Positions 7,659-21,466 of a stretch of DNA of 40,766 nucleotides are shown piece after piece. Where the stretch lies: contig JAUHYR010000015.1 of the NCBI GenBank assembly GCA_030426475.1, forward strand, positions 1 through 40,766, in the 5' to 3' direction. Position numbers and translations under genes: made by a program. Every line of letters begins with the position of its first letter. Position 1 is the first letter of the stretch. The stretch is from Bacteroidia bacterium. Its GTDB lineage: Bacteria > Bacteroidota > Bacteroidia > Flavobacteriales_E > Vicingaceae. Under the pieces are notes generated by a model that saw only the letters and a list, made by a program, of their open reading frames with translations, searched no databases and was not told the origin of the DNA.

Positions 7659-7771
7659 TGCGTTTTTAGCATTACCGTATAAATAAAGTCGGGTAGAGAA
7701 AGAGCAATCAAATTAAGTTATACCTTTTCATTTACGCCCGACAAATGAAGTAAATACAAAGGAGGTCTGTT
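7659..7771 (+). promoter_or_regulatory. structured leader of the first 168-residue gene
   Basis: Region before the gene at 7772, conserved with 20362-20472. In order: TGCGTTTTTA (7659-7668), probably promoter; a long-range stem GTCGGG (7688-7693) with CCCGAC (7737-7742) enclosing 43 nt that begins TAGAGAAAGA; then a conserved AAATGAAG block; then Shine-Dalgarno AGGAGG (7760-7765) 6 nt before ATG. In the second copy the stem is GTCAGG/CCTGAC, a compensatory G-C to A-U change. A strong Shine-Dalgarno is exceptional in this window. This suggests a cis-acting RNA with translational control; the ligand or partner is unknown. Confidence 0.6.
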
Positions 7772-8278
7772 ATGGCACCTTACAGCAACATATCAAGTAG
7801 TCTCGGTACGGGAGACTATAATCAAATTATCAATCGTATTAACGCCATTAAAGCAGCGTTACCATTTTTAATCAATCTTACTGCTGATGAACGCAGAAGA
7901 GGATTACGACAGGGCGACAAAAGCATGGCATTTGTAAGCAAAGCACTGGAATATGCTTCGGCACATCCTAATCTGGTGCCGCCTTATTTGAATGTGGGTG
8001 AGTTTCAAAAAGACCATGACTTGCGCGAACAACTGCTGCACATTTTGCGCGAAATGAACTCTTTGGTAGAAGCCATTGACGACACCGTGCTGGCCTTGGG
8101 CAGAGAAGAGTTTGAACAGGCGCTTATTTTTTACAATAGCGTAAAACAAGCCGCCAAAGGCAATGTGCCAGGCACAGGCTCTATTTACGAAGACCTTGCC
8201 GAACGTTTCCCTGGCGGAGGTTCTTCCGATAACGGAGGCGAACCTGACGAGCCCGCCACCCCTGAGCCCACTCCATAA
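7772..8278 (+). CDS. uncharacterised helical protein, copy 1 of a paralogous pair
   Basis: 168-residue soluble protein of a family I recognise as recurrent in bacteria but without a known function. Residues 1-148 form the conserved part: an N-terminal helix (DYNQIINRINAIKAALPFL), a LTADERRRGLRQGDKS turn, an ALEYASAHPNLVPPYL segment, a long helical stretch, and a QALIFYNSVKQAAKG helix ending in EDLAERFPG. The last 20 residues are a low-complexity Gly/Asp/Pro/Glu tail. No signal peptide or membrane helix. The copy at 20473 differs at about 20 of the first 148 positions. It is flanked by a conserved structured leader, a conserved terminator and a 21-bp repeat array, so it behaves as a self-contained unit. 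Confidence 0.85.
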   Translation: MAPYSNISSSLGTGDYNQIINRINAIKAALPFLINLTADERRRGLRQGDKSMAFVSKALEYASAHPNLVPPYLNVGEFQKDHDLREQLLHILREMNSLVEAIDDTVLALGREEFEQALIFYNSVKQAAKGNVPGTGSIYEDLAERFPGGGSSDNGGEPDEPATPEPTP

Positions 8279-8309
8279 GTTCTCTTTTTCTTTTAGTTAT
8301 ACGGTAGTT

Positions 8310-8350
8310 ACACCGCAGGTGCTGTTTTGAGCCTTGCGGTGTTTCTTTTT
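8310..8350 (+). terminator. intrinsic terminator after the first 168-residue gene
   Basis: ACACCGCA pairs with TGCGGTGT around a loop containing a further GG/CC pair, followed by TTTCTTTTT. The loop sequence (GTGCT...AGCCT) and stem are conserved with the terminator at 21010-21053, with an A-T to C-G exchange in the stem. Confidence 0.8.
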
Positions 8351-8401
8351 ATGGGCTTGTTTAGCCAACGGAACTATTAAATACCCCAACAGATTATCAA
8401 A

Positions 8402-8653
8402 AAGACCGAAAAAAGTATGGACGAGACCGAAAGTTTCGTCAAAAGGGGCGAAGCTTTCGCCAACATTACCGAAAATTTGGGTGAAAAGGGCGAACTTTTC
8501 GCCAAAGAGACCGAACGCTTCGCTTAAATGACCGAAGTTTTCGGCAACGCCACCCAAAACTTGGCTTAATTCACCGAAATTCTCGCCTCAGCCACCGAAG
8601 GCTTCGCCAAAAAGCACGAAAGTTTGGGGAAATTAGACGAGCGGTTGGGGGAA
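8402..8653. repeat. array of twelve 21-bp palindromic repeats (copy 1)
   Basis: Twelve degenerate units in exact 21-bp phase: the CGAA (or CCAA/CGAG) core begins at 8407, 8428, 8449, 8470, 8491, 8512, 8533, 8554, 8575, 8596, 8617 and 8638, with no indel. Each unit is a small palindrome of the form nCCGAAnnTTTCGnC followed by a short A-rich spacer. In several units changes in one arm are matched in the other (for example CCAA with TTGG at 8554). Read on the minus strand it gives heptads like GESFAPF, broken by stop codons near the 5' end of that frame. Stops also interrupt both plus-strand frames that I translated. The array lies about 50 bp after the terminator of the 168-residue gene; a homologous array follows the second copy. 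Confidence 0.75.
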
Positions 8654-8698
8654 TGAGGGATATAAGGGTCAAGTATAAGAGCAGTAGCGAATTTCAAA

Positions 8699-20361: not shown

Positions 20362-20472
20362 TGCGTTTTTAACATCAGAACTTGAAAAAGTCAGGTACAG
20401 AAAGAAGAAACAAATAAATGTAATACATTCATTTTGCCTGACAAGTGAAGCTAAAAACAAAAGGAGGATATT
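20362..20472 (+). promoter_or_regulatory. structured leader of the second 168-residue gene
   Basis: Counterpart of 7659-7771. TGCGTTTTTA at 20362-20371; stem GTCAGG (20390-20395) with CCTGAC (20437-20442) enclosing 41 nt beginning TACAGAAAGA; AAGTGAAG block; Shine-Dalgarno AGGAGG (20462-20467) 5 nt before ATG. The stem differs from copy 1 (GTCGGG/CCCGAC) by a matched change on both arms, while the loops have diverged. This supports a selected RNA structure. Confidence 0.6.
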
Positions 20473-20979
20473 ATGTGTCCTTATAACAACATCTCGGAGA
20501 ACCTAAGCACCGGAGATTACAATCAAATTATCAATCGTATTAATGCCATTAAAGCAGCTTTGCCATTTTTGGTAAACCTTACTGCCGATGAGCGTAGAAG
20601 CGGACTAAAAATGGGCGACAAAAGTCTGGCGTTTGTTAGCAAGTGTCTGGAGTACGCTTCGGCACATCCTAACTTGGTGCCGCCTTACCTAAATGTGGCG
20701 GAGTTTCAAAAAGACCATGACTTGCGCGAGCAACTGCTGCACATTATCAGAGAGCTGAACACTTTGGTAGAGGCGGTTGATGATACTATTTTGGCGCTGG
20801 GCAAAGAAGAGTTTGAGCAGGCGCTTATTTTTTACAATAGTGTAAAGCAAGCCGCCAAAGGCAACGTACCCGGCACGGGTGCTATTGTAGAAGACCTTGC
20901 CGAACGGTTTCCGGGCAATTCTTCCTCTGCCGATAATGGCGATGGAACAACGCCCGAACCGCCTGCGCCTAGTTCGTAA
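20473..20979 (+). CDS. uncharacterised helical protein, copy 2 of a paralogous pair
   Basis: 168 residues, closely similar to the protein at 7772. Identical long blocks include GDYNQIINRINAIKAALPFL, EYASAHPNLVPPYLNV and EEFEQALIFYNSVKQAAKG. About 20 substitutions in the first 148 residues, mostly conservative; copy 2 has cysteines at positions 2 and 58 where copy 1 has Ala. The C-terminal 20 residues diverge freely (Ser/Asp/Gly/Pro/Thr rich), which suggests a disordered tail. No signal peptide. Intracellular, probably oligomeric helical protein; function unknown. Leader, terminator and 21-bp array are all kept as in copy 1. Confidence 0.85.
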   Translation: MCPYNNISENLSTGDYNQIINRINAIKAALPFLVNLTADERRSGLKMGDKSLAFVSKCLEYASAHPNLVPPYLNVAEFQKDHDLREQLLHIIRELNTLVEAVDDTILALGKEEFEQALIFYNSVKQAAKGNVPGTGAIVEDLAERFPGNSSSADNGDGTTPEPPAPSS

Positions 20980-21009: not shown

Positions 21010-21053
21010 AAACACCGCCCGTGCTCTTTGTAGCCTGGCGGTGTTTCTTTTTT
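21010..21053 (+). terminator. intrinsic terminator after the second 168-residue gene
   Basis: Perfect 10-bp stem AAACACCGCC/GGCGGTGTTT (21010-21019 with 21037-21046), loop of 17 nt, then C and a run of T. It is homologous to 8310-8350, with compensatory differences. Confidence 0.88.
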
Positions 21054-21208
21054 GCATCCGCTTCGCCCATCATTTACTCAAAAGCAGGCTTATTTTATTC
21101 AACATAGACCTTTTATTGCTCCGTGAAGAGGAAACATGCCTCTAAAATAGCGTATTAAACAATCGAATTAGCGTACGGAAGGTCAGAAGAGGTGTGCAGA
21201 GGCTCGGC

Positions 21209-21439
21209 AGCAACGTATACTACGCCAAAGCTGACGCAACTTGCGTCAAGCGTGTCGCATTTTACGCCAACGGAGACGCTACGAGCGCCAACGGTGCCGA
21301 AACTTTCGCCTAAAGAGGCGTTCGGAACGCCAACGCTTGCGAAATTTACGCCTCAAGAGCCGTAGCGAACGCCATTAATGGCGTAACTTACGCCAAACGA
21401 GACGCACATTACGTCAAAGCCGACCCTTTTTACGCCAAA
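21209..21439. repeat. array of eleven 21-bp palindromic repeats (copy 2)
   Basis: Eleven units in exact 21-bp phase: the CG(C/T)C end of each unit begins at 21223, 21244, 21265, 21286, 21307, 21328, 21349, 21370, 21391, 21412 and 21433. Each is a 15-nt palindrome plus a 6-nt spacer. Three are perfect and different: GACGCAACTTGCGTC (21233-21247), GGCGTTCGGAACGCC, GGCGTAACTTACGCC. So both arms change together between units. The CGCCAA-type spacer is shared with array 1. One stop codon breaks the minus-strand heptad frame and one the plus-strand frame. Between the terminator and this array (21054-21208) I see no gene. Confidence 0.78.
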
Positions 21440-21466
21440 TTGGCAGAGATAGATAAAACAATAAAG

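Follow-up and report, generated by a model that had tools for sequence, protein, structure and literature searches.

Arrays of 21-bp direct repeats linked to an uncharacterised protein family in Bacteroidota

Plasmid partition centromeres and iterons (parC, tubC, and StbA sites) have about ten sites at helical spacing next to the gene for a small protein, and REP/BIME elements with their RAYT proteins are dispersed intergenic repeats that sometimes lie beside a cognate gene. Borgs, which are archaeal extrachromosomal elements, carry tandem repeats with near-perfect units of many lengths, about half of them in ORFs (PMC9879509); TAACTGA heptamer repeats are intergenic in Beggiatoaceae, Cyanobacteria, and Bacteroidetes (PMC4679880), and the signal of phased A-tract curved DNA is spread along bacterial genomes (PMC3940949, PMC3372288). 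Here we describe two loci in a 40,766-nucleotide stretch of DNA of a Bacteroidia bacterium (Vicingaceae; JAUHYR010000015.1), the whole of which we call the window, where 21-bp direct-repeat arrays lie behind copies of a gene that we call gene A. In the open-access literature on 21-bp Bacteroidetes arrays or curved repeat arrays we found nothing describing these arrays. The pair of gene A and array proves to be a branch of a wider class of repeat arrays, apparently undescribed as well, in which the arrays have protein families of their own.

The arrays share helically phased sites with partition centromeres (the period is 20 to 22 bp in 88 arrays), but in contrast to centromeres served by ParA, ParM, or TubZ, no NTPase-like cluster recurs within 3 kb of the units, the units occur in numerous chromosomal copies, and the protein beside them is acidic. 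Like Borg repeats, some of which are 18–21 nt long, they form many fast-evolving head-to-tail tracts of genome-specific abundance; here, however, one length dominates, the units are degenerate and non-coding, and the tracts are tied to gene families on a preferred side. The TAACTGA heptamers are likewise intergenic direct repeats in overlapping phyla, but they have a 7-bp unit of one sequence, whereas the unit sequence here is free, and heptamer repeats are rejected as an identity for the arrays by the lack of excess identity at lags 7 and 14. As in phased A-tract DNA, AA/TT steps are spaced with the helix and bending is predicted, although this holds for A-linked arrays only, where the signal is concentrated in separate direct-repeat tracts, each about 250 bp long, that follow members of a single protein family. 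Unlike REP/BIME elements with RAYT proteins, the arrays are fixed 21-bp head-to-tail tracts with no stable palindromic sequence and no transposase-like protein match; unlike CRISPR, their head-to-tail 21-bp units have no spacers, no cas-like cluster occurs among the recurrent neighbours, and protein A has no PADLOC match. They differ from a CsrB-type hairpin sponge in that stem-loops are not kept by compensatory change.

Two units in the window

A sequence-only reading of the window had reported a four-part unit, present twice. Two such units, each with a leader, gene A, a terminator, and a 21-bp array, are confirmed (Table 1), and the two proteins are of equal length and 80% identical; the genome, however, holds three copies of gene A, the third on contig C60. 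Hairpins like intrinsic terminators sit between gene A and the array in both units. A screen of the window for known RNA or tRNA gave no match, and an autocorrelation scan of the source genome found no recurrent period other than 21 and its harmonics.

Table 1. Features of the two units, in window coordinates
Feature	Position	Strand	Basis and remarks
Leader, unit 1	7664..7771	+	Alignment of the three leaders of the source genome
Leader stem, unit 1	7688-7693 / 7737-7742	+	100% paired; three copies compared
Possible second stem, unit 1	7727-7733 / 7743-7749	+	By eye
Shine-Dalgarno AGGAGG, unit 1	7760-7765	+	Sequence
Gene A, copy 1	7772..8278	+	ORF call, homologues; 168 aa, acidic, predicted all-helical with disordered tail
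Intrinsic-terminator-like hairpin, unit 1	8310..8351	+	Read from sequence
Array 1	8400..8660 (about)	.	21-bp, about 12 units, consensus near ACCGAAnnTTTCGCCAAAn; TRF (21/42 bp) 8423-8607; autocorrelation (score >=0.55) about 8372-8639
Leader, unit 2	20364..20472	+	Alignment of the three leaders of the source genome
Leader stem, unit 2	20390-20395 / 20437-20442	+	Three copies compared
Shine-Dalgarno AGGAGG, unit 2	20462-20467	+	Sequence
Gene A, copy 2	20473..20979	+	ORF call; 168 aa
Intrinsic-terminator-like hairpin, unit 2	21010..21054	+	Read from sequence
Array 2	21160..21450 (about)	.	21-bp, about 13 units; TRF (21/42 bp) 21282-21374; autocorrelation (score >=0.55) about 21179-21414

The leaders of the three gene A copies contain a 6-bp stem (GTCGGG/CCCGAC, GTCAGG/CCTGAC, and GTTGGG/CCCAAC) with two compensatory pairs, and in unit 1 the possible second stem would give an H-type pseudoknot, with the loop of the first stem pairing. 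The overall folding energy of these leaders is ordinary. Strong Shine-Dalgarno sites are unusual in Bacteroidota; they are present at all three local gene A copies, and absent from the few gene A homologues read in other genera.

Gene A and its array

Protein A has no fitting family in Pfam, NCBIfam, PHROGs, or PADLOC, the sole profile row being a marginal match of one member to MobP3 (E=0.007). A search of genome contigs with the single window protein gave no match. With a profile made from ten homologues, the family turns up in 40 of the 395 genomes sampled from the class, many of them draft, in at most seven copies per genome; scanning named species for a sequence pattern extends it to Ignavibacteria and, among Cyanobacteria, to Nostoc and Komarekiella. 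The only gammaproteobacterial homologue seen is on plasmid pTs417 of Candidatus Thiodictyon syntrophicum (L123), where an array is not directly behind the gene. The family is acidic (median pI 4.9), and the predicted model (pLDDT 92) consists of helices only, one of them 55 residues long, and has a loose tail; fold searches with it returned a best Foldseek E of 1.1 and a best Z of 4.8. Structure searches gave no convincing match to a known fold for A or for the array-linked protein B1 described below, and a match of the A profile to MICAL1 chains in the PDB (E 0.002) was taken as chance helical similarity. Some A proteins (L078, L086, L094, and L069) have long C-terminal extensions, beta-rich in appearance, and in this resemble the architecture of several other array-linked proteins.

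The sequence-only reading had bound RNA, protein, and array into one functional system and proposed looking for leader and array together among homologues. For protein and array the co-occurrence holds: periodicity of 20–22 bp (score >=0.5) lies downstream of A in 86 of the 113 homologues with sufficient DNA on that side and upstream in 5 of 112 (Fisher p=3e-31; cut-offs picked by inspection, with controls under identical cut-offs). No such support extends to the RNA part; the covarying stem was seen only in the three copies of the source genome, and leaders of homologues elsewhere have no marked structure (mean fold z -0.75, 14% below -2). Among the five upstream hits are a stretch of N and the array belonging to a neighbouring A copy; other periods, harmonics aside, show no such bias around A homologues. 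The array is present behind the Cyanobacteria and Ignavibacteria homologues too, and these observations support the conclusion that protein A and the array are co-inherited across phyla, far beyond chance. About a quarter of the homologues have no clear array; at L064 and L115 the downstream array is missing and one lies ~200–400 bp upstream of gene A instead.

The array usually starts 40–90 bp past the A stop codon, contains 10–14 units, and can be shared between tandem duplicate A genes. A terminator-like hairpin occurs within 90 nt of the stop in 65 of 87 homologues versus 19 of 82 control stretches, and because it precedes the array, the array need not belong to the A transcript. Recurrent neighbours of A loci are B1, B2, HTH, and surface-protein genes. 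Surface-protein genes of T9SS-type appearance are often upstream of A (L054, L056, L073, and others), with a raw count of 22 within 3 kb.

Spacing, predicted curvature, and possible function of A-linked arrays

Across 88 A-linked arrays the period is 21 bp in 82, 22 bp in five, and 20 bp in one; since 20 and 22 exist beside 21, it is spacing and not codon phase that is kept. Excess identity within arrays is confined to lags 21 and 42. Consensus similarity between arrays falls to background once A identity is below about 50%, and even at 80% A identity it is ~0.40, versus a mean of 0.62 within an array. In the orthologous pair L043/L046 (86% A identity) the ~240 bp array has accumulated substitutions and zero gaps; the arrays of L048/L049 (96% A identity) are more turned over and have no gap-free alignment. 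Open frames within arrays are at the null level and give no coding signal, which together with the 22- and 20-bp periods rules out coding heptad repeats.

The array could instead be transcribed: like the CsrB sponge, its repetitive RNA would titrate a protein or serve as its scaffold, each 21-nt stretch binding A or a partner. Tandem units would suit a multivalent ligand, units of some arrays (including those of the source genome) can form short hairpins, and consensus dyad symmetry exceeds that of column-permuted arrays in 40% of cases, so that the palindromic character given to the array by the sequence-only reading holds at consensus level in a minority of arrays and not otherwise. We nonetheless regard an RNA sponge as unlikely. 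Watson-Crick covariation within units is found in 15 of 84 arrays, against 25, 11, and 14 for control pairings, and G-T mismatches are not in excess over A-C at paired positions; with covariation no better than control pairings and a G-T bias absent, a ladder of RNA hairpins is rejected. Further, the terminator-like hairpin parts the array from A, and the A-specific signal is a periodicity of the double helix. Judged from these sequence comparisons, the array is neither a gene nor a ladder of RNA hairpins, and is best seen as a cis-acting DNA element read by its spacing.

The helical signal was measured against column shuffles that keep the period and consensus dinucleotides. AA/TT power in A-linked arrays is raised only at the 10.5-bp second harmonic (mean percentile 0.74, p=2e-9), and since AA/TT steps are phased to the helix, the DNA is predicted to be intrinsically bent. 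Predicted curvature is 0.76 versus 0.47 deg/bp in shuffles (69 of 88 arrays, p=4e-11) under a wedge model with parameters entered by hand, of which the harmonic test is independent; related sequences are not independent, and with one value per genome (n=52) the curvature test gives p=2e-8. In 69 independent arrays without a link to A, the AA/TT percentile is 0.50, and neither phasing nor predicted curvature is in excess. Curvature as a trait of all 21-bp arrays is thus rejected, and as the other arrays share the period and lack the phasing, curvature cannot explain the period generally.

Our preferred reading, held tentatively and with somewhat less than even confidence, is that the A-linked array is a helically phased cis-acting DNA platform for co-operative nucleoprotein assembly, with a role for A or a partner. 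The array would present ~10–14 equivalent sites on one face of the helix, two turns (21 bp) apart, on DNA predicted to be intrinsically bent; a nucleoprotein structure may assemble on it co-operatively and could mark, insulate, or regulate the neighbourhood. The binder might be A itself, or A acting through a basic DNA-binding partner such as B1 or B2, whose genes lie beyond the array at some loci; the acidity of A makes its direct binding to DNA doubtful, and no fold match supports binding. We infer every step of this mechanism from the sequences. Against the platform stand the many A loci, most of them and the source genome's included, with neither B1 nor B2 beside the array, the homologues with no clear array, and the L048/L049 arrays with their lack of a gap-free alignment.

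Arrays without gene A and their protein families

The sequence-only reading had described a self-contained unit. The unit proved not to be closed, and the array is not confined to gene A: arrays of the same period occur alone or beside other uncharacterised families, in the source genome and in others. Two small protein families recur directly beyond the array: B1, a basic protein of ~82 aa, and B2, which combines an HTH with a coiled coil. Among B1 genes with no A nearby (L213-L232), 18 have a long enough upstream flank, and in 17 of these an array lies directly upstream; these arrays are often alone between housekeeping genes, and three further B1-array cases without gene A were found (L201, L203, and L208). 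A longer, single-copy form of B1 in other genomes has no array.

In the first 400 kb of a contig from another genome (G121:C2:1-400000; L233-L252) there are 20 tracts of exact 21-bp period, about one per 20 kb, and other periods between 15 and 30 bp are all but absent; one tract resembles a coding lysine-rich repeat and one a heptamer tract, and about 17 are arrays without gene A. Two Pfam-less families lie beside G121 arrays, C (~244 aa) and W (~238 aa), and we scanned 1.3 kb on each side of 30 loci of each (L273-L302 and L303-L332), a wider span than for A. As tabulated, an array accompanies 29 of the 30 C loci (at a threshold of 0.55, 21 have it downstream and 8 upstream, and some of the loci counted lie near that threshold) and lies upstream at 27 of 30 W loci, with 0–3 of 30 for control periods. 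Besides A, no fewer than three undescribed families (B1, C, and W) are array-linked, and the four families tend to be found in the same genomes, with odds ratios of 14–50. Four genomes of the window's own family that lack these proteins have zero such arrays in 392 kb.

In a further ~300 kb of the source genome, the scan found three or more arrays without gene A. One, at C32:50604-50882 (G000; L267:10604-10882), is 87.5% identical to array 2 over 279 bp without gaps, and the similarity starts and stops with the array limits; because this copy has no gene A, arrays also duplicate on their own. The proposal that the unit was moved or duplicated as a whole therefore fits leader, gene, and terminator, but not array 2, which is closest to the C32 array. 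The 3′ part of the C32 array resembles array 1, which has no other similarity in the source genome than this partial one, and the C32 array reads as a composite of both window arrays.

The composite suggests exchange or recombination between arrays, and could be taken to mean that the array is the recombination or insertion site of a mobile cassette, the unit, and serves its movement and not the resident cell. Several copies per genome, a spread over distant phyla, and arrays common to different loci would agree with this. We think it improbable, as the neighbours include no recurrent integrase or transposase family, A homologues were absent from phages and viral contigs, and plasmids gave one match, without an array.

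The main rival of the platform is that the arrays are minisatellite-like or selfish tracts with a 21-bp habit in some genomes, which arise and spread through slippage, recombination, or some uncharacterised transposing activity and have no function for the cell; protein families would adjoin them since shared mobile cassettes carry both. Many arrays alone between housekeeping genes, their abundance in G121 and absence from the four relatives of the source genome, the gap-free duplicate on C32, fast sequence turnover, and a patchy distribution in multiple copies all favour selfish tracts. The explanation is nevertheless rather unlikely in our view: each family has a preferred side (arrays follow A but precede W and B1), a divergent orthologous array keeps its 21-bp spacing gap-free, the helical-phase signal is present in A-linked arrays and missing from the rest, and simple slippage predicts varied unit lengths, whereas other periods are nearly absent. 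If the arrays are selfish minisatellites, the fixed period and the preferred gene side still need explaining.

Taking all families together, we lean slightly towards a chromosomal system of 20–22-bp direct-repeat arrays in many Bacteroidota and some Ignavibacteria and Cyanobacteria, served by dedicated, undescribed families A, B1, B2, C, and W, in which spacing is selected and sequence is free; the same joint claim includes, by extrapolation, up to hundreds of arrays per genome. Conserved spacing with free sequence would, if true, be an unusual kind of inherited information, and as an array is visible only through its periodicity, homology searches miss it. Together with the several unannotated protein families involved, it would suggest that a layer of chromosome organisation, regulation, or mobility has gone unrecognised in a major bacterial phylum.

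A 320-aa family (NNPGGIY/NNPGGIF) was seen twice beside G121 arrays (C2, near 171206 and 346110), with the array 5′ of the gene. Besides the C32 array, two 21-bp arrays of the source genome without gene A, at L257:7595-7809 and L271:12405-12612, lie respectively beside a short GIY-YIG-like ORF and between riboflavin-synthase-like and surface-protein genes.
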